Under the pieces are notes generated by a model. The model made no database searches. It saw only the letters and a program-made list of their open reading frames with translations, and was not told where the DNA came from. From the NCBI GenBank assembly GCA_947500385.1, contig CANMSA010000013.1:1-64000 (forward strand): a stretch of DNA of 64,000 nt. Direction: 5' to 3'. How positions within the stretch are numbered: the stretch's first letter is position 1; each line of letters begins with the position of its first letter. This stretch comes from an uncultured Flavobacteriaceae bacterium. Lineage in GTDB: Bacteria; Bacteroidota; Bacteroidia; Flavobacteriales; Flavobacteriaceae. Below are positions 53,531-64,000 of this stretch, in pieces. Both the position numbers and the translations under genes were made by a program.

Positions 53531-54568
53531 TTAATAACTGGTCTCATCCAAAGTTACCTTTCCCCTGAAAGTTTTATATACGAAGTAAGTATAGCCCAAT
53601 ACCAATGGCCCACCTATAGCGACCATTACCATCATGATACGCAAGGTTTTGGTCGAAGCCGCTGCATTGTATACATCAATACTGTATTTAGGGTCGACCG
53701 TAGAGAACAGCAAGGTAGGATACAATTCAATGGCCACCAAAGTCAACAACAAGGAAATCGTGACACAGGAAAAGAAAAACGCATTACGATACTGGCCCTT
53801 GTTGGCCAAACGAGGTACATTCGCTATACAAAAAAATGTCGCGACCGGCACCCCAAAGAGTATCGGGTTACTTTTGAAAGCATCGGACAGATGTGGAATA
53901 TACAGCAAGGTGTACAAGGTGGTAATTCCAAAACTGATTATAAAAAAAATCATGCTCTTTTTTAAAAGCAGGGTCAATTTTGCAAAAAGTCGACCTTCGG
54001 TCTTAAGCAATAAGTAAATCGCCCCATGTACCATAAACAAGGCCAGGGTAGTAATCCCGGTCATTAAAGCATAGGGATTTAAAAATTCGAAAAAGCCCGC
54101 TCCCTGATATTGGTATTGAGGGCCGATCGCGATGCCTTGCAGTACATTGCCCAATACGACTCCCAACAAAAACGCCAATAAGGTGCTGGATACGCTATAG
54201 CCGATATCCCAAGTTTTACGCCACCATGCCATTTCCTCTTTCCCTCTAAATTCGATCGAGATGGCCCTGAAGATAATGCAGACCAGAAACAGCATAAAGG
54301 GTACGTACAAAGAAGAGAACAAGGTGGCATACATGACCGGGAAGCCGGCAAACAAAGCTCCTCCCCCAATAACCAACCATACTTCGTTTCCATCCCATAC
54401 GGGACCAACGGCATTGAGTGCTACGCGTCTGCTGTGTTCTTTCTTAAAAAACAAATGCCAAGCGCCCGCCCCAAAATCAAAACCATCCAAAATTGCATAG
54501 CCAGAAAACAGCGCTCCGATGACCAAAAACCACCACGTGGGGTAATCCAATCCTAAAAATGTTTCCAT
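53531..54568 (-). CDS. cydB: Cytochrome bd ubiquinol oxidase subunit II
   Basis: The 345-residue second subunit of cytochrome bd oxidase, with about eight or nine helices. The N-terminal WWFLVIGALFSGYAILDGFDFGAGAWH and the WDGNEVWL motif (about 58-65) are diagnostic. It lacks extra soluble domains. It follows cydA by 6 bp. Confidence 0.96.
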   Translation of the reverse strand: METFLGLDYPTWWFLVIGALFSGYAILDGFDFGAGAWHLFFKKEHSRRVALNAVGPVWDGNEVWLVIGGGALFAGFPVMYATLFSSLYVPFMLFLVCIIFRAISIEFRGKEEMAWWRKTWDIGYSVSSTLLAFLLGVVLGNVLQGIAIGPQYQYQGAGFFEFLNPYALMTGITTLALFMVHGAIYLLLKTEGRLFAKLTLLLKKSMIFFIISFGITTLYTLLYIPHLSDAFKSNPILFGVPVATFFCIANVPRLANKGQYRNAFFFSCVTISLLLTLVAIELYPTLLFSTVDPKYSIDVYNAAASTKTLRIMMVMVAIGGPLVLGYTYFVYKTFRGKVTLDETSY

Positions 54569-54574
54569 AACTAC

Positions 54575-55954
54575 TTAATTTCCTGTTAGTACACCGGTTA
54601 TCTCCTTTGTTAGTGGCCGATCACTTTCTTCCGTATCGTCATAGGGCCCGTGCTTTATTTTCTTGTTGAGCAAATAGACAAACAATAGGAATAGCAGGGT
54701 ATATACTACCATAAAAAGGATAAGGGAAAATAACACCTGATTGGCGGAGACAGCTTGTGAAAAAGCATCAGAAGTGCGTAAAAGCCCGTACACCACCCAT
54801 GGTTGTCTGCCCATCTCTGCAGCAAACCAACCTACTTGATTTGCGATTTGCGGCAGAAACGCGGTGAATACAAAGGTCCACAGCAACCATCGTTTGTCAA
54901 ACAATTTTCCACGCCACCATTGAAAACAGGCATACACCGAAAGTGCTATCAAGAACATCCCAATGGCAATCATGATATGATAAAACTGAAATACTGCATT
55001 CAACTGGGACGGCCGATCTTCCTCCGGAAAGGCATTCAAACCGGTTACCGGTGTTTCAAAGTCGTAGTCCATCAGAAAGGAAAGACCCCCGGGAATTTTT
55101 AACCCCGTCACTTCTTGGTTCTCTTTATCTACCCATCCTAAAAGGTACATGTCTGCAGGGGCGGAAGCATCAAAATGCCCTTCCATAGCTGCCAATTTTG
55201 CGGGTTGATTTTTAGCGACCCCTTCCGCGGAGCTATGGCCGGTTACCAATTGCCCAAGAGAAAAAACGGTCGCAACGACGAGTGTTAGTTTAAACGCTTT
55301 CTTGGAAATTAATACAAAGCGGCCCTTTAAAATGTAATACGCATGTACGCTCAGTATCAGAAAGGCGCCGGCTAAAAAGGCACCCAGCCATACATATAAT
55401 ATTCTGTCGACGCTTGACGGATTGAACACCATGGCCCAGAAATCGGTTATTTCGGCCCGGGCGTTAAATCCTTCCCCAACGATATGATACCCTGCCGGGG
55501 TTTGTTGCCAGCTATTTGCTACCACGATCCAAATAGCTGAAAACATAGAACCCAAAAACACTCCGATCGTCGAAACAAGATGTACCCATGGTTTTACACG
55601 GTTCCATCCGAACAGGAGTACCCCTAAAAACCCGCTTTCGAGTGCGAAGGCAAAAATCCCCTCCGCCGCCAACGCGCTACCAAAAATATCGCCGACATAG
55701 CGAGAATAAACGGCCCAGTTGGTACCGAATTCAAACTCCATCACGATACCGGTTACCACCCCTATGCCAAACGTAAGGGCAAAGATCTTCGTCCAGAACT
55801 TGGCGAGCACATGATATTCCTTGTTTTTGGTGCGAATATAGAGGCTTTCGAAAACGACCATGACGAGTCCAAGGCCAATGCTCAAAGGAGGATATATGTA
55901 ATGGAATGCAATGGTAAAAGCGAATTGGATACGGGCAAGAATTTCAACATCCAT
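54575..55954 (-). CDS. cydA: Cytochrome bd ubiquinol oxidase subunit I
   Basis: The 459-residue haem-bearing subunit of cytochrome bd, a high-affinity terminal oxidase used at low oxygen and under nitrosative or sulfide stress. The N-terminal His in FAFTIAFHYIYPPLSIG, the GRQPWVVYG segment (about 378-386) and the Q-loop region VAKNQPAKLAAMEGHF are visible; the Q-loop is of the short type. It is 101 bp downstream of the hydroxyproline operon on the same strand. On the minus strand, TATCTTTA with a TTG about 23 nt upstream is a possible promoter. cydC/D and cydX are absent here. Confidence 0.96.
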   Translation of the reverse strand: MDVEILARIQFAFTIAFHYIYPPLSIGLGLVMVVFESLYIRTKNKEYHVLAKFWTKIFALTFGIGVVTGIVMEFEFGTNWAVYSRYVGDIFGSALAAEGIFAFALESGFLGVLLFGWNRVKPWVHLVSTIGVFLGSMFSAIWIVVANSWQQTPAGYHIVGEGFNARAEITDFWAMVFNPSSVDRILYVWLGAFLAGAFLILSVHAYYILKGRFVLISKKAFKLTLVVATVFSLGQLVTGHSSAEGVAKNQPAKLAAMEGHFDASAPADMYLLGWVDKENQEVTGLKIPGGLSFLMDYDFETPVTGLNAFPEEDRPSQLNAVFQFYHIMIAIGMFLIALSVYACFQWWRGKLFDKRWLLWTFVFTAFLPQIANQVGWFAAEMGRQPWVVYGLLRTSDAFSQAVSANQVLFSLILFMVVYTLLFLLFVYLLNKKIKHGPYDDTEESDRPLTKEITGVLTGN

Positions 55955-56055: not shown

Positions 56056-57303
56056 TCAAAAGGAACGATGGGGGGTAAACGGCCTAACATCCATAGAAGT
56101 TTTTTGCCCTCCGATAAGCTCGGAAACCAGCTTACCTGTGGCCGGCCCCAAGCTCCATCCCATCATGGCATGCCCTGTGGCCAAGGTCAAATTTTTATAT
56201 TTTTTTGCCCTTCCAATATAGGGCAACCCATCTGGTGATACCGGTCGCATTCCCGTTTGGGCAGCAGCTATTTCGTTTTGTGTAATTTCCAATTCGGGAT
56301 AAAAGGTTTTCGCACCTTTGGCAATGGCCAATACCCGTTCTTTTCGAATGATGTCATTGATCCCTGAAAATTCCATAGTTCCCGCAAAACGGGTAAAACC
56401 TTGCATTGGCGTGACGGCCATTTTTGCTTCCATCAAAATGGCCGGCATACCAATTCCAGTGGGCCTTTCAACATTGATACGATAGCCCTTCCCCGCTTGT
56501 AAGGGAAGTTTTAGATTCATTTTTTTTGCTAAAACCCCACTCCATGAACCTGCCGCAAGCACCACTTCATCCGGCTCATATGCCTCCTTGGACGTTTGCA
56601 CCCGATCAATACGTTGGTGGTTGAATGAGATATCCAAGACCTCTTCGTTGGTCCTAATTTTTACTCCTACACGTTTAAGATGCTGTAGTAGTTTTGGCAT
56701 TACTTCTGTGGGGGTAGTATGGCCATCACATTCGTAATGAATGGCTCCTTTGGCATCGATCTGTATGTTTGGCTCTATCTTTGTCAACGCCGATCGATCT
56801 AACTCGGACACTTCCAATCCTAGAAACTTAGCTTTTCGCGCCACTTCCATTTCATGTTCGTAGGAGGCATCTGTTTTGTAAAGCATCAAAAGGCCCTTTC
56901 GCTCCAACTGAAAATCCCCTAAATCCCCGGAAGCTTTTATAGCTTCGAAAAGTTCACGGCTTAAAATATTGATCTCCTTGATTACGGGAATGGCTTTTTC
57001 TACTTTCGCTTTTGTAGACGATTTATGAAAGTACCACGACCATTTGAAAAACCCTGTATCCCAGCGGGGTTTCATATAAAAAGGACTCGCCGAATTAAAC
57101 ATCATTTTTATGCCCGTGGCTATCATTCCCGGGGAAGCCAGGGGAATAATATGACTGGGCGTAATGTAACCTGCATTTACAAAAGACGCCCCTGAGGTAA
57201 TGTCAGATTTATCTATTACGGTCACGTCATGACCTTCTTTCTGTAAAAAGTAGGCACTACTTAAACCTACAATCCCCCCTCCAATGATTACGATATTGCT
57301 CAA
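56056..57303 (-). CDS. D-amino-acid dehydrogenase, probable D-hydroxyproline dehydrogenase
   Basis: A 415-residue FAD-dependent DadA-type oxidoreductase. GGGIVGLSSAYFL (about 8-20) is the FAD Rossmann motif; the C-terminal GMRPVSPDGLPYIG and ATGHAMMGWSLGPATGKLV complete the FAD site. In this operon it should oxidise cis-4-hydroxy-D-proline to 1-pyrroline-4-hydroxy-2-carboxylate, with electrons to the respiratory chain. Last of five co-directional genes, 20 bp after the epimerase. Confidence 0.88.
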   Translation of the reverse strand: MSNIVIIGGGIVGLSSAYFLQKEGHDVTVIDKSDITSGASFVNAGYITPSHIIPLASPGMIATGIKMMFNSASPFYMKPRWDTGFFKWSWYFHKSSTKAKVEKAIPVIKEINILSRELFEAIKASGDLGDFQLERKGLLMLYKTDASYEHEMEVARKAKFLGLEVSELDRSALTKIEPNIQIDAKGAIHYECDGHTTPTEVMPKLLQHLKRVGVKIRTNEEVLDISFNHQRIDRVQTSKEAYEPDEVVLAAGSWSGVLAKKMNLKLPLQAGKGYRINVERPTGIGMPAILMEAKMAVTPMQGFTRFAGTMEFSGINDIIRKERVLAIAKGAKTFYPELEITQNEIAAAQTGMRPVSPDGLPYIGRAKKYKNLTLATGHAMMGWSLGPATGKLVSELIGGQKTSMDVRPFTPHRSF

Positions 57304-57323
57304 AACAGTCTGTACTTTATGTT

Positions 57324-58331
57324 TTAAATGACTTGAAACCCCTGTGCATATGGATCCTCGTCATCAATGATAATCGTATTAAAGCCATACACCCTGGCCC
57401 AGCCTTGTACGCTCGGAATAATTGCCTGTTTCCCCCCTATCACGCTGGCCGCTTCAACCGTACCCACGAATTGGGAACCAATGAAACTTTCATGAATAAA
57501 AGGCTCCCCAATGGCAAGTTGGCCCTTTGCATACCATTGCGCCATCCTGGCCGAGGTTCCGGTGCCGCAAGGCGAGCGATCAATAGCCTTGTCGCCATAA
57601 AAAACGGCGTTTCGAGCCGTAGCATTATCGGCCATGGGCGTGCCCGTCCATAGGATATGGCTTACGTTTCGGATAGTGCTATCTTCGGGATGCACAAAGG
57701 CATCTTGATACCGCTCGTTTATCTTGGTTCGTATATCCTGACTAAATTGAATAAGTGTACTGGCCGAAAAATCCTGTATCCCGGAAAAATTTTCTTGTAT
57801 ATCAATAATGGCATAAAAATTCCCTCCGTAAGCGACGTCGAACACCAATTCCCCAAGTCCGGTACTGGGGATAGTTAAATCAGTGGCCGCAAGGTAAGAT
57901 TTGACGTTGGTCAGCTTTACCCACTCTACCTTTTTTCCGCTTTGGCCATATGTGATTTGTACCAATCCGGCCGGCGTTTCCATACGCACTTTACCCGGAA
58001 TCTTTGGGATTATCAATCCTTCTTCAATACCGATCGTAATGGATCCAATGGTCCCGTGACCACACATGGGAAGGCAACCACTGGTTTCAATAAACAAGAT
58101 ACCCAAGTCATTTTCGGGATTCGAAGGCGGATAAAAAATACTACCACTCATCATATCATGGCCCCGCGGTTCGAACATCAACCCTTTCCGAATCCAATCG
58201 AATTCTTTTAAAAAATGTTGCCGCTTAGCACTCATAGTATCCCCTATTAACCGAGGGGCTCCGCTTTTAACGACCCGAACGGGATTACCACAGGTATGCG
58301 CGTCAATGCATTCGAAAGTACTACGAGCCAT
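57324..58331 (-). CDS. 4-hydroxyproline 2-epimerase
   Basis: A 335-residue proline-racemase-superfamily enzyme. Both catalytic Cys are present, C90 in MCGHGTIG and C255 in SPCGTGTSA, which marks racemases/epimerases and excludes 3-hydroxyproline dehydratases, where one is replaced. It would convert trans-4-hydroxy-L-proline to cis-4-hydroxy-D-proline. I start at 58331 (MARSTFECIDAHTCGNP), the family-typical N-terminus; the 30 extra upstream codons belong to the overlapping DUF885 gene. The overlap with that gene is 11 bp. Confidence 0.92.
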   Translation of the reverse strand: MARSTFECIDAHTCGNPVRVVKSGAPRLIGDTMSAKRQHFLKEFDWIRKGLMFEPRGHDMMSGSIFYPPSNPENDLGILFIETSGCLPMCGHGTIGSITIGIEEGLIIPKIPGKVRMETPAGLVQITYGQSGKKVEWVKLTNVKSYLAATDLTIPSTGLGELVFDVAYGGNFYAIIDIQENFSGIQDFSASTLIQFSQDIRTKINERYQDAFVHPEDSTIRNVSHILWTGTPMADNATARNAVFYGDKAIDRSPCGTGTSARMAQWYAKGQLAIGEPFIHESFIGSQFVGTVEAASVIGGKQAIIPSVQGWARVYGFNTIIIDDEDPYAQGFQVI

Positions 58332-60093
58332 GGCGTTCCTTTTCAATATACGTATTGATACGGCTTTCCAGTATGGCCAAGGTAACTGTACCTTGCGCAA
58401 GAACCACTTCATGAAAATCACGAATATCGAATTCGGTTCCGAGGGCCTCTTCCGCTTTTGCCCTGAGCGCTCGTATCTTCAACTCCCCAATTTTATAGGA
58501 AAGTGCCTGTCCTGGCCATGAAATATAGCGATCTGTTTCAGTATTCACCTCGTGCAATGATAATGCAGTGTTGGCAGTCATATAATCGACTACCTGCGCG
58601 CGAGACCATCCCTTTGCATGTAAGCCGGTATCTACTACCAAGCGACAAGCCCTCCACATTTCATAGGTTAGCTTGCCAAAATGTTCATAAGTGGTGGTGT
58701 ACATACCCATCTCTTCGGCTAAAAACTCCGAATACAGTCCCCACCCTTCTCCATAGGCCGATAAATAGAGGTCTTTTCTAAATTGGGGAATACTATCCCC
58801 CAATTCGGCATTCAACGCCCCCTGCAAGTGATGTCCGGGGACGGCCTCGTGGACCGTAAGAGAGGGTAAGGTATAGAGCGTTCTGCTGGGCAGGTCGTAG
58901 GTGTTGACCCAATAATACCCGGGATCGGTGCTATTTTTTTCGGTGCCTACATACCTGCCACCGGTATATTTGGGAGCAATGGCATCTGGTACGGGTGCTA
59001 CACCATACGGTTTCCGTGGTAGGGATTTAAAAAATCGTGGTAATTGCTCATCTGCACGTTTCGCCATATCCCGTGCGATCATCAGCAATTGTTCTGGTGT
59101 TTTGGCATAAAACTGCTCGTCGGTTCTCAAAAAGGTCAAAAAATCCCCAAAACTGCCCGTAAAACCTAATTCTGCTATAATTGTTTCCATTTTGGCTTTG
59201 ATACGCGCTACTTCGTTCAATCCGATTTCATGAATATCTTCGGCACTGTAATCGGTACTGGTGGTGTAAAAATTAATTCTGTTTTGGTAATAAGCGACAC
59301 CATTAGGGGTCTCCGAAACTCCTACAGCGGTTCGGGTACTTGGTATATACTCATCCTCAAAAAAGATTTTGATGCGCTTAAACTGGGGTATTACCTTTTC
59401 TTGAATGGCTTCTTTTGCCGCTATTAACACAGAATCTTTTATGCGTTGGGAAAGTGTACCCGGAAGGTTTTTGAAGGGGGAGTAATAATAACTATCCTCA
59501 AAGTGCGATACAATATGATCTTCATAGGTACTTTCGTAGCCCTTGAACATAATCTTCGGTTGTGAAACTCCTTTTTGTAATCCTTCGCGCAGATTTACCA
59601 GGTATTGATCTACGAAATTCGGAATGGCGTTCAACTTGTCAAGGTAGTCCTTGACTTGTTCGTAACTGGTCAATGGGCGCACGTAGTAGGTAAGATTGCT
59701 GTGAAATCCGGAATCGGACAACAACGGGTTCAAATAGCGCTCAAACGAATAAAAATCAATTTGGTCTTGAAGTACGAATTGTAACAGTTCGAAAGAAATT
59801 CGATCGGTTTCTTTCAAAGCTTCCGTATCGACACCTTCAAGGGCCGTTAACAGCGATTCAGCGAAGTTTGCCTCTGCCTCATAATATTCTTTTGTAAAAA
59901 GTCCAAGCGGAAATTCGGACTTGTCATAGCCTTCGTGATTTTCATAGGTTTCAATGATATCCAACAAGGCGTCCCCTGGGTTTTTTGAAGCCGGGGTACA
60001 GGCCAAAAAACTGAGAAAGCAAACGGCGCTTAGCACGCAAAACGCATTGTTTGACACGCTATTAAACAATTGCATTTTTTGTTGATTTACCAT
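58321..60093 (-). CDS. DUF885-family metallopeptidase-like lipoprotein in the hydroxyproline operon
   Basis: A 590-residue exported lipoprotein (LSFLAC, lipid Cys about 32) of the DUF885 family, predicted zinc metallopeptidases. HEAVPGHH (415-422) gives the metal-binding His residues and Glu, and GEGW (448-451) the third-ligand Glu. Few DUF885 proteins are characterised. It overlaps the upstream aldehyde dehydrogenase gene by 32 bp (14 bp if the ATG at 60075 is used) and the downstream epimerase gene by 11 bp, so it is translated as part of the operon. I infer a role in releasing hydroxyproline from peptides. Confidence 0.88.
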   Translation of the reverse strand: MVNQQKMQLFNSVSNNAFCVLSAVCFLSFLACTPASKNPGDALLDIIETYENHEGYDKSEFPLGLFTKEYYEAEANFAESLLTALEGVDTEALKETDRISFELLQFVLQDQIDFYSFERYLNPLLSDSGFHSNLTYYVRPLTSYEQVKDYLDKLNAIPNFVDQYLVNLREGLQKGVSQPKIMFKGYESTYEDHIVSHFEDSYYYSPFKNLPGTLSQRIKDSVLIAAKEAIQEKVIPQFKRIKIFFEDEYIPSTRTAVGVSETPNGVAYYQNRINFYTTSTDYSAEDIHEIGLNEVARIKAKMETIIAELGFTGSFGDFLTFLRTDEQFYAKTPEQLLMIARDMAKRADEQLPRFFKSLPRKPYGVAPVPDAIAPKYTGGRYVGTEKNSTDPGYYWVNTYDLPSRTLYTLPSLTVHEAVPGHHLQGALNAELGDSIPQFRKDLYLSAYGEGWGLYSEFLAEEMGMYTTTYEHFGKLTYEMWRACRLVVDTGLHAKGWSRAQVVDYMTANTALSLHEVNTETDRYISWPGQALSYKIGELKIRALRAKAEEALGTEFDIRDFHEVVLAQGTVTLAILESRINTYIEKERHGS

Positions 60094-61648
60094 TAACCAA
60101 TCTACTGATTTTTAAAGGATTGGAGTTTTTTAATGCTTCAGGCAACGCATGGTCTGGCCAGTTTTGATAACTCAATGGCCGTACCCAACGTTTTATGGAA
60201 TGAATCCCCACTGCTCCAAAGCGACTATCGGTAGACGCAGGATACGGGCCGCCATGCTGCATCGATGGGCACACTTCCACACCAGTGGGTACTCCGTTAA
60301 AAATAATACGACCTACTCTTCCTTGTAGGGTTTCAATAAGTATATCGTTGGATTCCAAATCCTCGTTCGATCCTAGGATGGTACCTGTTAGTTGTCCTTC
60401 TAAATTTCCAATAATACCGGTAAGCTCCTTCATATCGGCACAACGCACCACTATTGAAAAGGGCCCGAACACTTCCTTATGCAGGGAGGGGTTCTTTAAA
60501 AAATCACTTCCCGATACAGTAATCACTTTTTGCGTACCGAAATTGGCCGCTACCGCTCCGCTATACGATCCGGCCACGGTAACCCCTTCTTGGGCAGCGA
60601 GCGTTGTTTTGCCTTTTTCAAAATTGCCATGAATCGTAGGGTGCAACATGCAAATAGGAGCTACTTCTTCAATCGCCGACCCCAAAGCTTTTATAAAAGC
60701 ATCGAGCGCGCTACTCTCAATTCCAAAAATTAATCCAGGATTGGTACAAAACTGCCCTGCACCCAACGTAATGGAACCTGCATACTGTTCTGCCCACTCA
60801 GTTCTCTTCTCTTGAAGTGCCGATGGTAAGGCCACCACTGGGTTTACACTTCCCATTTCCGCAAAGACGGGTATGGGCTCCGCTCTTTGGGACGCCAAAT
60901 CAAACAAAGCACGTCCTCCGCGAATACTGCCTGTGAAACCCACGCCTTTTACGCCCGGGTGCTGTACCAACTGTACCCCAACTTCGATACCGCTGCTATT
61001 CAAGTTGGAAAAAACACCATTGGGCATGCCTGTTTTCTCGGCAGCCCGCACAATTGCCGAGGCTACTAGTTCACCGGTACCAGCATGCATGGGGTGGCTC
61101 TTTACGATTACAGGGCAGCCGGCAGCAAAGGCTGCGGCCGTATCGCCACCAGCCGTTGAATAGGCCAACGGAAAATTACTGGCTCCAAAAACCACAATAG
61201 GTCCTAATGGAACACTCATTTTACGCAAATCCACTTTGGGCGAAGGGGTTCGTTCGGGTTGTGCAGTATCAATGCTCGCCTCTACCCAAGAACCTTCCCC
61301 GACCAACTCCGCAAAAGCGCGAAGTTGCCCTACTGTTCTGCCACGCTCGCCCTTTGCGCGTCCTTCGGGCAGACCCGTTTCCGAGCAGTATACCTGAATC
61401 AACGCATCATCCAACGCTACTATTTCGTCAGCGATGGCGTCTAAAAAGGACGCTTTCCTTGTAGCCTCTACCCTTCTAAACTCTTTAAACGCTTGGGTAG
61501 CCAAGTCTACTGCCTTGGCCACCTCATGGCTCGATGCTTCCTTATAAACCGGTTCATTTTCGAGGTTCAATAAAGGGTTGAAGGTTTTATAGGTGGTGGT
61601 GCCTTCTGCAGACAAATTAGATCCAATATAGTTTTTTCCTGTAATCAT
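60062..61648 (-). CDS. 2-oxoglutarate-semialdehyde (2,5-dioxovalerate) dehydrogenase
   Basis: A 528-residue aldehyde dehydrogenase of the NADP+-dependent type III KGSADH group. Catalytic E264 is in FAEMGSVNPV and C301 in AGQFCTNPG; FTGSIRGG is the cofactor segment. It oxidises 2-oxoglutarate semialdehyde to 2-oxoglutarate, the last step of hydroxyproline catabolism and also of non-phosphorylative pentose oxidation. Second gene of the operon, 28 bp after the deaminase. Confidence 0.9.
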   Translation of the reverse strand: MITGKNYIGSNLSAEGTTTYKTFNPLLNLENEPVYKEASSHEVAKAVDLATQAFKEFRRVEATRKASFLDAIADEIVALDDALIQVYCSETGLPEGRAKGERGRTVGQLRAFAELVGEGSWVEASIDTAQPERTPSPKVDLRKMSVPLGPIVVFGASNFPLAYSTAGGDTAAAFAAGCPVIVKSHPMHAGTGELVASAIVRAAEKTGMPNGVFSNLNSSGIEVGVQLVQHPGVKGVGFTGSIRGGRALFDLASQRAEPIPVFAEMGSVNPVVALPSALQEKRTEWAEQYAGSITLGAGQFCTNPGLIFGIESSALDAFIKALGSAIEEVAPICMLHPTIHGNFEKGKTTLAAQEGVTVAGSYSGAVAANFGTQKVITVSGSDFLKNPSLHKEVFGPFSIVVRCADMKELTGIIGNLEGQLTGTILGSNEDLESNDILIETLQGRVGRIIFNGVPTGVEVCPSMQHGGPYPASTDSRFGAVGIHSIKRWVRPLSYQNWPDHALPEALKNSNPLKISRLVNGKSTKNAIV

Positions 61649-61676
61649 TTGTGTACGCGTTAACTAGGTTTGTTGA

Positions 61677-62603
61677 CTATTCAACTAGGTTAAGGTTTTT
61701 ATAAGCCGGTAAACTTGGTCGTGTTCGCAAGCCATTCTCTATGATCTGTAATACCCGTTTACGTTCCTCTCCTTGAAGTGGAAGCCTTGGAGGTCGTACT
61801 TGTTCAGTTCCGATTCCCGTAGCAACCTCGGCCAACTTAATGTTCTGAACCAACTGCGGACTAATATCCAATTCTAGGAGCGGTAAGAACCAACGATAAA
61901 TTTCAAGGGCTTCTTCAATTCTTCCGGCTTTTGCCAGCTCATATATGGCCACCGTTTCGGCCGGAAAAGCGCATACCAATCCGGCGACCCAACCATCGGC
62001 CCCGACAAGCAAACTTTCCAATGCCAAGGTATCCACTCCACATAAAATAGCCAGCTCGTCTCCGAAACGATTTCTTAGACGACCAATATTGGTGATATCG
62101 CGCGTAGATTCCTTAACAGCCTGAATCGTCTTTACGGTTATCAACTCCTCGAACATGCGAACGGTCACTTCTATCTTATAATCTACTGGGTTGTTGTAAA
62201 TCATAATGGGCAAATTGCTATTGCGGGCAATTTCCTTAAAATAAACGACCGTTTCATAATCGGTAGACTTATAGCGCATTGGAGGTAACACCATCAAGGC
62301 ATTGGCTCCGGCCTTTTCCGCCGATTGCGCCACCTCTATGGCAGCTTTTGTTGCCTGCTCGGCAATGGTCATAGTCACCGGAACGGTTCCGCTGGCCAAA
62401 CCAACGGCTTCCCTAATAAGTGTTAACTTCTCTTGTTTTCGAAGGGTACTGGCTTCCCCCAAGGAACCACCCAAAATGATACCATGTACCCCGGCGTTCA
62501 ACTGCGCTTTCATATTCTTACCGAACATCCCCAGGTCTAAACTATCGTCATCCTTGAACTTGGTGGTGACCGCTGGCATTATGCCTTTCCATTGTACTTT
62601 CAT
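61677..62603 (-). CDS. DapA-family 1-pyrroline-4-hydroxy-2-carboxylate deaminase
   Basis: A 308-residue (beta/alpha)8 Schiff-base lyase of the dihydrodipicolinate synthase family. The active-site Lys is K164 in QAVKEST and the Tyr is Y136 in IYNNP; GGSLGEAS is the usual substrate-carboxylate loop (GTTGE in true DapA). With the epimerase and dehydrogenase neighbours the expected reaction is deamination of 1-pyrroline-4-hydroxy-2-carboxylate to 2-oxoglutarate semialdehyde. First gene of the operon, divergent from the AraC regulator. Confidence 0.88.
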   Translation of the reverse strand: MKVQWKGIMPAVTTKFKDDDSLDLGMFGKNMKAQLNAGVHGIILGGSLGEASTLRKQEKLTLIREAVGLASGTVPVTMTIAEQATKAAIEVAQSAEKAGANALMVLPPMRYKSTDYETVVYFKEIARNSNLPIMIYNNPVDYKIEVTVRMFEELITVKTIQAVKESTRDITNIGRLRNRFGDELAILCGVDTLALESLLVGADGWVAGLVCAFPAETVAIYELAKAGRIEEALEIYRWFLPLLELDISPQLVQNIKLAEVATGIGTEQVRPPRLPLQGEERKRVLQIIENGLRTRPSLPAYKNLNLVE

Positions 62604-62628
62604 ATCGGGTATCTTTTCAAATTTACAA

Positions 62629-62636
62629 CAAAAATA
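62629..62636 (-). promoter_or_regulatory. -7 element of the hydroxyproline operon
   Basis: TATTTTTG on the minus strand, exact TAnnTTTG, 25 bp upstream of the deaminase start. A second match, TAAATTTG, lies nearer the gene (about 62626-62619). A TTTG at about 62654-62651 could be a short-spaced -33, and it overlaps the first AAAATA box. Confidence 0.5.
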
Positions 62637-62650
62637 ACCGTCTTCTTGCT

Positions 62651-62702
62651 CAAAATAGTACGCTCATTTTATCCAAAATAGAGACTATTTTAACCTAAAA
62701 TA
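62651..62702. promoter_or_regulatory. Triple AAAATA operator candidate between the operon and its AraC regulator
   Basis: CAAAATAG occurs at 62651-62658 and 62674-62681, and CTAAAATA at 62695-62702; AAAATA cores start at 62652, 62675 and 62697, spaced 23 and 22 bp. The second box is also one arm of a perfect dyad AAAATAG-AGA-CTATTTT (62675-62691). Direct repeats about two helical turns apart are the usual binding pattern of AraC-family activators. Confidence 0.55.
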
Positions 62703-62747
62703 TCCAATTAATCCATTTACATGTTAAAATTGAGTTATTTTAGAGCC

Positions 62748-63617
62748 ATGAAAGTACTACCCTTTCGAATTCCAAAAACCGCAGATCACAACCTTATTGT
62801 GCAAGTTGACAAGGGACCGTCGTTTTACAAACTGCTCCATCAGCACGAAGAAATTCAATTAAGCTACATCGTATCGGGCCAAGGTACCCTTGTTTTGTCC
62901 GACAGCCTCCATGATTTTGCCTCCGGTGACGTTTTTATGATCGGAGGCAATATGCCACATCTTTTTAAAAGTATGCGGGATATCGAATCAGCCCACATGA
63001 TTTCCGTGTTTTTCACCAAAGACAGTCTTGGTAGCGGGTTTTTTAGTATTCCAGAAATGGATGAGCCAAGTAGCCTGATCAAGGCTGCATCGAACGGACT
63101 TAAGCTACAGTCGCATTTCGAGACCGTTCATTCCTATATGCTTGCACTGCCAGTAGCAGCCAAGTTTGATCGGTTGTTGTTATTTTTGAAACTGCTGCAC
63201 ACGCTTACCAAAGCAGAAAAACTAACATTGGCCGACTACGTTTCTTCGAAGGTCTTGACTTCCATCGAGGGGCAACGATTGCAATCGGTGTTCGACTATG
63301 CCGTAACCAATTTTGCAAAAGAGGTGAATTTGGGGTCGGTTTCTCACCTAGCACATATGACCCCACCTGCATTCTGTCGATTTTTTAAGCAACATACAAA
63401 CAAGACCTTTTTCGAGTTCTTGATCGAACTAAGAATTGCACATGCTTGCCAATTATTAACCTCTAACACCAAGTTATCGATAATCGAAATTGCTGAAAAT
63501 TCGGGCTTCGGTTCAATTTCAAATTTCAATCGCAGATTTAAAAAAGTAAAAGGGACCACCCCATCGGCGTACAGAAGGGCACTGAAAGCGCATTCTTACT
63601 ATCTGTTTCAAGGATAA
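62748..63617 (+). CDS. AraC-family regulator of the hydroxyproline operon
   Basis: A 289-residue regulator from the preferred ATG at 62748 (an in-frame ATG at 62721 adds nine residues). The N-terminal cupin domain (about 10-110) has HQHEEIQLSYIVSGQGTLVL, DFASGDVFMIGGNMPHLF. The C-terminal double HTH (about 185-285) has NLGSVSHLAHMTPPAFCRFFKQ and IIEIAENSGFGSISNFNRRFKK. Divergent from the operon across 144 bp holding the AAAATA boxes, so it is the likely hydroxyproline-responsive activator. Confidence 0.9.
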   Translation: MKVLPFRIPKTADHNLIVQVDKGPSFYKLLHQHEEIQLSYIVSGQGTLVLSDSLHDFASGDVFMIGGNMPHLFKSMRDIESAHMISVFFTKDSLGSGFFSIPEMDEPSSLIKAASNGLKLQSHFETVHSYMLALPVAAKFDRLLLFLKLLHTLTKAEKLTLADYVSSKVLTSIEGQRLQSVFDYAVTNFAKEVNLGSVSHLAHMTPPAFCRFFKQHTNKTFFEFLIELRIAHACQLLTSNTKLSIIEIAENSGFGSISNFNRRFKKVKGTTPSAYRRALKAHSYYLFQG

Positions 63618-63685: not shown

Positions 63686-63693
63686 TATTTTTG
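63686..63693 (+). promoter_or_regulatory. -7 promoter element of the M28 peptidase gene
   Basis: TATTTTTG, exact TAnnTTTG, 30 bp upstream of the ATG at 63724. Confidence 0.45.
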
Positions 63694-63723
63694 GACAATT
63701 TTGTACACAATAATTTAGAAAAA

Positions 63724-64000
63724 ATGAAAAAAGTTGCACTCCTCATCGTTGGCTTGGTCCTCGGCTGTAATTCTTCTCAGAAAACAGTAGAGGAAACCGT
63801 TGAAAAGATAGGCTCGGAAACCTATGTTGAATCTATTACAGAAGTTGATTTAAAAGAACACCTCTATACTTATGCTTCCGACGAATTTGAAGGAAGGGAA
63901 ACGGGGCAGCCTGGGCAAAAAAAGGCGGTGGCCTATATTAAAGCCTATTATCAAAAGTTGGGAATTCCTGCGGCCAAAGGAGGAGATGACTATTTTCAAA
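63724..64000 (+). CDS. M28-family peptidase lipoprotein (N-terminal part)
   Basis: The first 92 codons of a gene that runs off the window. A lipoprotein signal (LVLGC, lipid Cys at 15) is followed by ITEVDLKEHLYTYASDEFEGRETGQPG and KAVAYIKAYYQKLGI, the N-terminal signature of flavobacterial M28 zinc aminopeptidases (DEFEGRETG). The catalytic metal motifs lie beyond the window. Its position after the hydroxyproline regulator suggests, but does not show, a further peptide-degradation link. Confidence 0.85.
   Translation, partial: MKKVALLIVGLVLGCNSSQKTVEETVEKIGSETYVESITEVDLKEHLYTYASDEFEGRETGQPGQKKAVAYIKAYYQKLGIPAAKGGDDYFQ

Follow-up and report, generated by a model that had tools for sequence, protein, structure and literature searches.

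The window analysed here, 64,000 nucleotides from an uncultured Flavobacteriaceae bacterium (assembly GCA_947500385.1, contig CANMSA010000013.1, positions 1 to 64,000), carries near its end an operon for the catabolism of hydroxyproline (Hyp) in which a gene of the DUF885 family is embedded. The link between DUF885 and the Hyp operon across Flavobacteriaceae is strong and not a product of chance, and the sequences support the view of this predicted lipoprotein as a conserved, exported part of the operon. That many relatives keep DUF885 in the same operon slot suggests that it cuts Hyp out of peptides. We hold it moderately probable that the operon is a two-compartment Hyp scavenging module, with DUF885 as an envelope zinc metallopeptidase freeing Hyp or short Hyp dipeptides. 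A preliminary description, made from the letters of the window, had proposed a periplasmic peptidase for Hyp-containing peptides such as those left by collagen breakdown; its observation is confirmed and its interpretation as a whole is partly supported, the function being one that we, too, infer.

The operon and its conservation in Flavobacteriaceae

As read from the open reading frames (ORFs), five genes are packed on the minus strand from 62603 to 56056, at the end of the 64-kb window:

61677..62603, minus strand: DapA-type gene (Pfam DHDPS, 186 bits), adjoins 4HypE gene, no NCBIfam equivalog above cut-off
60062..61648, minus strand: aldehyde dehydrogenase (ALDH; Pfam Aldedh), predicted 2-oxoglutarate semialdehyde dehydrogenase, no listed NCBIfam equivalog above cut-off
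58321..60093, minus strand: exported DUF885 lipoprotein, predicted zinc exopeptidase (PF05960, AlphaFold2 (AF2) model, epimerase linkage)
57324..58331, minus strand: 4-hydroxyproline 2-epimerase (Pfam Pro_racemase; NCBIfam NF010578, 572.3 bits, cut-off 376; two Cys)
56056..57303, minus strand: FAD-dependent oxidoreductase (DAO; Pfam DAO, 216 bits), predicted D-hydroxyproline dehydrogenase

The operon had been described as five genes with overlaps or gaps of at most 28 bp, and every ORF was recovered in its described place and strand. The gap between the DapA-type and ALDH genes measures 28 bp and that between epimerase and DAO 20 bp, and DUF885 overlaps both of its neighbours: its start at ATG 60093 or ATG 60075 gives an overlap of 32 or 14 bp with the ALDH stop, and the epimerase ATG at 58331 overlaps the DUF885 stop by 11 bp. 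This epimerase start is preferred over the one in the ORF list (58421), which lies 30 codons too early, and the DAO gene starts with TTG. All four enzyme families leading from Hyp to 2-oxoglutarate are present in this one operon, in agreement with the preliminary description. The epimerase passes the 4-hydroxyproline 2-epimerase equivalog and holds its Cys pair in MCGHG and SPCGTG; both Cys are the mark of epimerases. The exact steps of the DapA-type, ALDH and DAO proteins rest on family and context, because no listed NCBIfam equivalog passed; the DAO protein scores under the cut-offs of the NCBIfam D-amino acid dehydrogenase models. The only solved relatives of the ALDH at E <= 1e-20 are 3v4c (named NADP+) and 1eyy, both aldehyde dehydrogenases; enzymes of this kind probably resemble 2-oxoglutarate semialdehyde dehydrogenase of the Hyp-induced type.

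Conservation was followed in 299 Flavobacteriaceae genomes, 157 with a Pro_racemase match (epimerase places listed for 150) and 171 with a protein that matches the window's DUF885. The 150 DUF885 rows among the matches listed fall into two groups, 92 orthologues (at least 55% identity) and 58 paralogues (at most 45%). Sixty-seven of the 92 orthologues are no more than 5 kb away from the epimerase on the same strand, 63 of them directly before it with a gap below 150 bp, and span 61 genera (genus codes mapped by hand). DUF885 is thus kept in the operon of relatives, a point on which the preliminary description had staked its reading. Six further orthologues lie elsewhere in genomes with a listed epimerase, 17 in genomes without an epimerase match and two in genomes whose epimerase place is unlisted. 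Paralogues, by contrast, were never near an epimerase (0/58; of these, 40 come from genomes whose epimerase place is listed, 17 from genomes without a match and one is unlisted). Among the matches listed, 67/92 versus 0/58 corresponds to a Fisher p of ~6e-22, which is only a guide value because the rows share ancestry, and restriction to genomes with a listed epimerase place leaves 67/73 orthologues versus 0/40 paralogues. Moreover, a listed orthologue is present in 75/157 epimerase genomes versus 17/142 others (Fisher p ~1e-11, kinship ignored).

Gene order was compared in 116 epimerase loci, 67 with DUF885 and 49 without (50 of the 83 other listed places, minus L112, where an opposite-strand ORF had been kept over its epimerase). 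The order ALDH-DUF885-epimerase occurs in 62/67 loci with DUF885, and in 46/49 loci without it the ALDH gene stands directly before the epimerase; since ALDH and epimerase adjoin in DUF885-free operons, the DUF885 gene behaves as an optional cassette. In L202 (L202:3232-4179) an ornithine cyclodeaminase-type gene sits between ALDH and epimerase, which is the DUF885 slot elsewhere. Other peptidases accompany the operon: S9 proteins with a DPP-IV N-terminal domain in 24/116 loci on the operon strand and 0 on the opposite strand (17 cases between epimerase and DAO), and M24 proteins (aminopeptidase P or prolidase type), which follow DAO, in 23/116 on the operon strand and likewise 0 opposite. At least one of DUF885, S9 and M24 is present in 82/116 loci (67 plus 15/49). 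A Peptidase_S37 (S37-type) gene ends the Hyp operon in L155 (L155:11115-12434) and is another peptidase candidate.

In a tree of 134 DUF885 proteins (quick method, midpoint root), a split with Shimodaira-Hasegawa-like approximate likelihood ratio test support of 94, not among the starred branches, separates 91 family orthologues (operon and orphan), three Chitinophagia proteins and one from Emticicia from 39 others, mostly of Pseudomonadota; as the root is a midpoint, this split is no proof of a clade. On this tree, 12 changes are required to explain operon or orphan status. The distribution of DUF885 on the epimerase tree takes no fewer than 30 changes, against a mean of 37 after shuffling, and just six of the 30 are forced by starred, well-supported branches.

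The DUF885 protein and its predicted role

The 590-aa product matches PF05960 with 522.3 bits (cut-off 32.4) over profile positions 16-532 of 532, which places it in the DUF885 family, and the exported protein with HEAVPGHH and GEGW that had been described is borne out by the following features:

59998..60009, minus strand: lipobox-like FLAC, residues 29-32 of the 590-aa ORF (sequence pattern)
58828..58851, minus strand: HEAVPGHH, residues 415-422, with H415, E416, P419, G420, H421 and H422 invariant in alignments A1 and A2
58741..58752, minus strand: GEGW, residues 448-451, invariant in alignments A1 and A2

The lipoprotein signal reads FLSFLAC (residues 26-32, judged by pattern and eye), and a lipobox pattern is found in 42/91 DUF885 orthologues. 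By a crude hydrophobicity measure, a hydrophobic N-terminus is present in 89/91 DUF885 and 31/32 S9 proteins, versus 0/29 M24 proteins and 0/116 epimerases; the same measure is passed by 1/118 ALDH, 3/102 DapA and 108/112 DAO proteins, the last with their Rossmann strand.

The canonical zincin motif HExxH is absent; in its place stands HExxPGHH, whose second His comes six or seven residues after the first (i+6 or i+7) where HExxH has it at i+4. H415, H421 and E449 are predicted to bind the metal, with E416 as the base; E449 of GEGW, which could be the third metal ligand, is kept in 67/67 operon rows and 23/24 orphan rows. Pfam puts the DUF885 family in the MA clan (PMC12572635, excerpt). The AF2 model (predicted local distance difference test, pLDDT, 93) finds as VIA matches three DUF885 structures first, then M32 carboxypeptidase, MATCAP and oligoendopeptidase F, and ACE after those; VIA-align considers Foldseek candidates only, and absences from its list carry no meaning. 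The model fold, the invariant metal-site-like residues and the S9 and M24 genes in the same operons give indirect support to the peptidase role proposed earlier, which stands as a prediction: DUF885 is probably an active peptidase and, by analogy with M32 enzymes and ACE, might be an exopeptidase that removes residues from the C-terminal side. Its preferred substrates would carry Hyp, e.g. Pro-Hyp or Gly-Pro-Hyp.

In the scavenging module, exported peptidases (DUF885, and S9 where present) would trim extracytoplasmic Hyp peptides, and the products, Hyp or Hyp dipeptides, would then enter the cell. No transporter gene is among the operon's five genes, and an amino acid permease gene is present in the Hyp clusters L187 and L286. 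M24 enzymes, where present, would finish dipeptides in the cytoplasm, where trans-4-hydroxy-L-proline would be converted to its D-epimer, oxidised, deaminated and oxidised to 2-oxoglutarate. Because DPP-IV cleaves imino-imino bonds such as Pro-Hyp poorly, a C-terminal mode of DUF885 would complement DPP-IV-like and aminopeptidase P-like enzymes, which is the most speculative step of this scheme.

Beyond the five genes, a regulator diverges from the operon:

62604..62720, no strand: divergent intergenic region, the likely site of operon promoter and regulator target
62721..63617, plus strand: divergent AraC-family regulator with a cupin-like N-terminal part (Pfam HTH_18, Cupin_2)

An M28-family gene (63691-64000) follows the AraC gene, as also in L004, and then a TPR histidine kinase-like gene; some of the relatives also have these two genes next to their regulator. 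The suggestion that the M28 peptidase belongs to the module finds no support, given that it lies on the opposite strand in 21/116 loci and on the operon strand in 0/116. After DAO, on the same strand, come cytochrome bd oxidase genes (cydA, cydB; 53531-55954), which are also found in L093 (same genus) and L106 and would be a possible electron outlet for the flavin dehydrogenase.

Specificity and the source of hydroxyproline

Collagen as the Hyp source, named as an example in the preliminary description, fares less well. GH127, GH88-like and sulfatase genes in some relatives point at least equally to Hyp-rich glycoproteins, and the natural source may therefore be glycoprotein rather than collagen, at least there. 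It is quite possible, if still short of an even chance, that Hyp-rich glycoproteins of plants or algae (extensin or arabinogalactan type) supply the module, in which case DUF885 would act on the Hyp peptides of these proteins and collagen would not be the natural source; this reading would be compatible with the scavenging module and differ from it on the source. GH127 beta-L-arabinofuranosidase genes stand beside S9 in five Hyp clusters (L112, L179, L180, L181, L187). In four Flavobacteriaceae cases the order is S9, GH127 and a distant DUF885 (L112 and L179 read directly, G127 and G228 from coordinates); in L181, S9 and GH127 are present and a distant-type DUF885 is not in the part read. The genes of ~1000 aa after S9 had been considered as TonB receptors, which was rejected, five of them being GH127. 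GH127 enzymes that have been characterised free arabinose from the Ara-Hyp of Hyp-rich glycoproteins (PMC6085000, excerpt), and a genome paper ties GH127 to extensin (PMC4454575, excerpt). Further genes at Hyp loci in favour of a glycoprotein source are of SusC/SusD type beyond the regulator (L179, L187), GH88-like between epimerase and DAO (L093, L096; homologues without Pfam match in L157, L224), sulfatases (L158, L199, L204) and an alpha-L-arabinofuranosidase C-terminal domain near the epimerase (L272). In L199 (L199:28-6165), four sulfatase genes directly precede a Hyp operon with an S9 gene. However, GH127 is found in only 5/117 epimerase loci of the family survey, none with the window's DUF885 type, and just two weak matches to GH127 occur in the window's genome, whose operon holds no GH127, GH88-like or sulfatase gene.

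The distant DUF885 proteins form a second group. A search with PF05960 in 37 selected genomes found same-strand matches within 10 kb of the epimerase in six more, namely G094, G127, G228 and G297 of the Flavobacteriaceae and G377 and G526 of another family of the class (f41); 6/37 is no rate. The 37 comprise 28 of the 34 matching genomes of a class survey (omitted were the window's own genome, two that carry an orthologue and three whose matches are weak) and nine Flavobacteriaceae with weak DUF885 matches. In G333, DUF885 lies 6 kb from the epimerase on the opposite strand, and three of the 37 genomes are without any. Over the aligned part, identity to the window's DUF885 is 26% for G377 and 22% for G526. 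The L112, L286 and L287 proteins match that of L179 at 561-657 bits, and G127 and G228 were put in the distant group by similar Pfam scores alone. The gene order in L286 is DapA, ALDH, epimerase, DAO, AraC, DUF885, amino acid permease and S9. In L287, DUF885 follows DAO, and a DUF5695 protein adjoins the distant DUF885 gene (L287:481-3240). Tentatively, the DUF885 family could consist of Hyp-directed exopeptidases recruited to Bacteroidota Hyp operons at least twice (groups ~22-26% alike where given), in some relatives within a locus for Hyp-arabinosylated glycoprotein where SusC/SusD proteins would serve uptake, GH127 would remove arabinose, S9 and DUF885 would cut the peptide and the operon would burn the Hyp.

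Several observations weigh against the proposed function, and some of them would suit a broad exported oligopeptidase without Hyp preference, which Hyp operons recruited to bring in more peptide once protein-rich matter is sensed. A comparison of operon and outside rows gave no Hyp-specific residue signature: under the cut-offs applied (>90% in operon rows, >80% in outside rows), just F183 and T571 separate the groups. No DUF885 orthologue is listed in 82/157 epimerase genomes. The 17 genomes with an orthologue and no epimerase match, 12 of them at least 90% complete, weaken the case for Hyp-peptide specificity; their orthologues keep the same motif residues, and in four (G040, G048, G069, G269) DUF885 still has ALDH or DAO genes as neighbours. 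Outside relatives at ~45-52% identity have other neighbour genes. Three Chitinophagia loci, which speak for the link, keep parts of the Hyp arrangement; beyond these, no Hyp-linked case was seen among the best 80 out of 596 or more relatives, several flanks being short, and Hyp genes were not seen in the available flanking DNA of the 39 proteins across the tree split. Nevertheless, the specific slot is kept across the 61 genera and the listed paralogues, presumably peptidases too, are never near an epimerase, which makes a broad oligopeptidase rather unlikely in our view.

DUF885 as a non-peptidase, either a hydrolase of another amide or a binding protein, would fit the departure from the canonical HExxH and the literature searched, in which no member with tested activity was met, but the VIA fold neighbours are zinc peptidases and the candidate metal residues are invariant in alignment A2, and we deem it improbable. 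Most improbable of all is inherited synteny without function, in which a peptidase gene landed in the operon once and hitch-hikes, since, although related genomes share neighbourhoods, the family's orthologues are all on one side of a branch with full support in the DUF885 tree and possession of DUF885 shows some clustering on the epimerase tree, the flanks vary (besides the regulator, related to the window's AraC type in 47/67 loci with DUF885, the next commonest family reaches 27/67), the slot was lost or refilled repeatedly, distant DUF885 proteins also occur in Hyp clusters and the reading frames overlap.

Relation to known systems

The DUF885 structures 3o0y, 3iuk and 3u24 share 27, 22 and 15% identity with the window's protein, and their titles give a putative lipoprotein or an unknown function. 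Identity falls to ~7-13% for M32 carboxypeptidases, M3 oligoendopeptidase F and M2 ACE, which have the motif HExxH, unlike the HExxPGHH of the window's protein. A link between DUF885 and Hyp was not found in the open-licence literature searched, nor was a DUF885 member with tested activity. If the proposed function is true, it would offer a testable substrate class for a widespread peptidase-like family that has none in that literature.

Peptidases and Hyp catabolism are associated elsewhere. The HypR regulon of Streptomyces coelicolor includes an M9 collagenase (PMC6608401, excerpt); PF01752 (M9 collagenase) has no match in the window's genome, but control genomes were equally silent and the result is uninformative. 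The collagen utilisation cluster of Colwellia BB5 shares with the window's operon the combination of the Hyp epimerase pathway and proline-type peptidases in one cluster, and differs in having an M9 collagenase and PepQ and YpdF types, with no DUF885 named in the available excerpt (PMC7883544). With respect to GH127 Hyp-arabinoside systems of HypBA1 type (PMC6085000, excerpt), GH127 is found in the five related Hyp clusters and not in the window's operon. If the variant with GH127 is true, it would add a bacterial route by which the protein moiety of Hyp-rich glycoproteins is used; enzymes that remove the sugars of these glycoproteins are already known (same excerpt). Finally, known Hyp catabolic clusters (epimerase, D-Hyp dehydrogenase, deaminase, alpha-ketoglutarate semialdehyde (KGSA) dehydrogenase) have the same steps and gene families as the window's operon, which differs from them in its single-subunit DAO and in the exported DUF885 protein encoded inside it. 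With the proposed function, a known amino-acid pathway would become, in a large family of bacteria, a candidate route from peptide or glycoprotein to 2-oxoglutarate.

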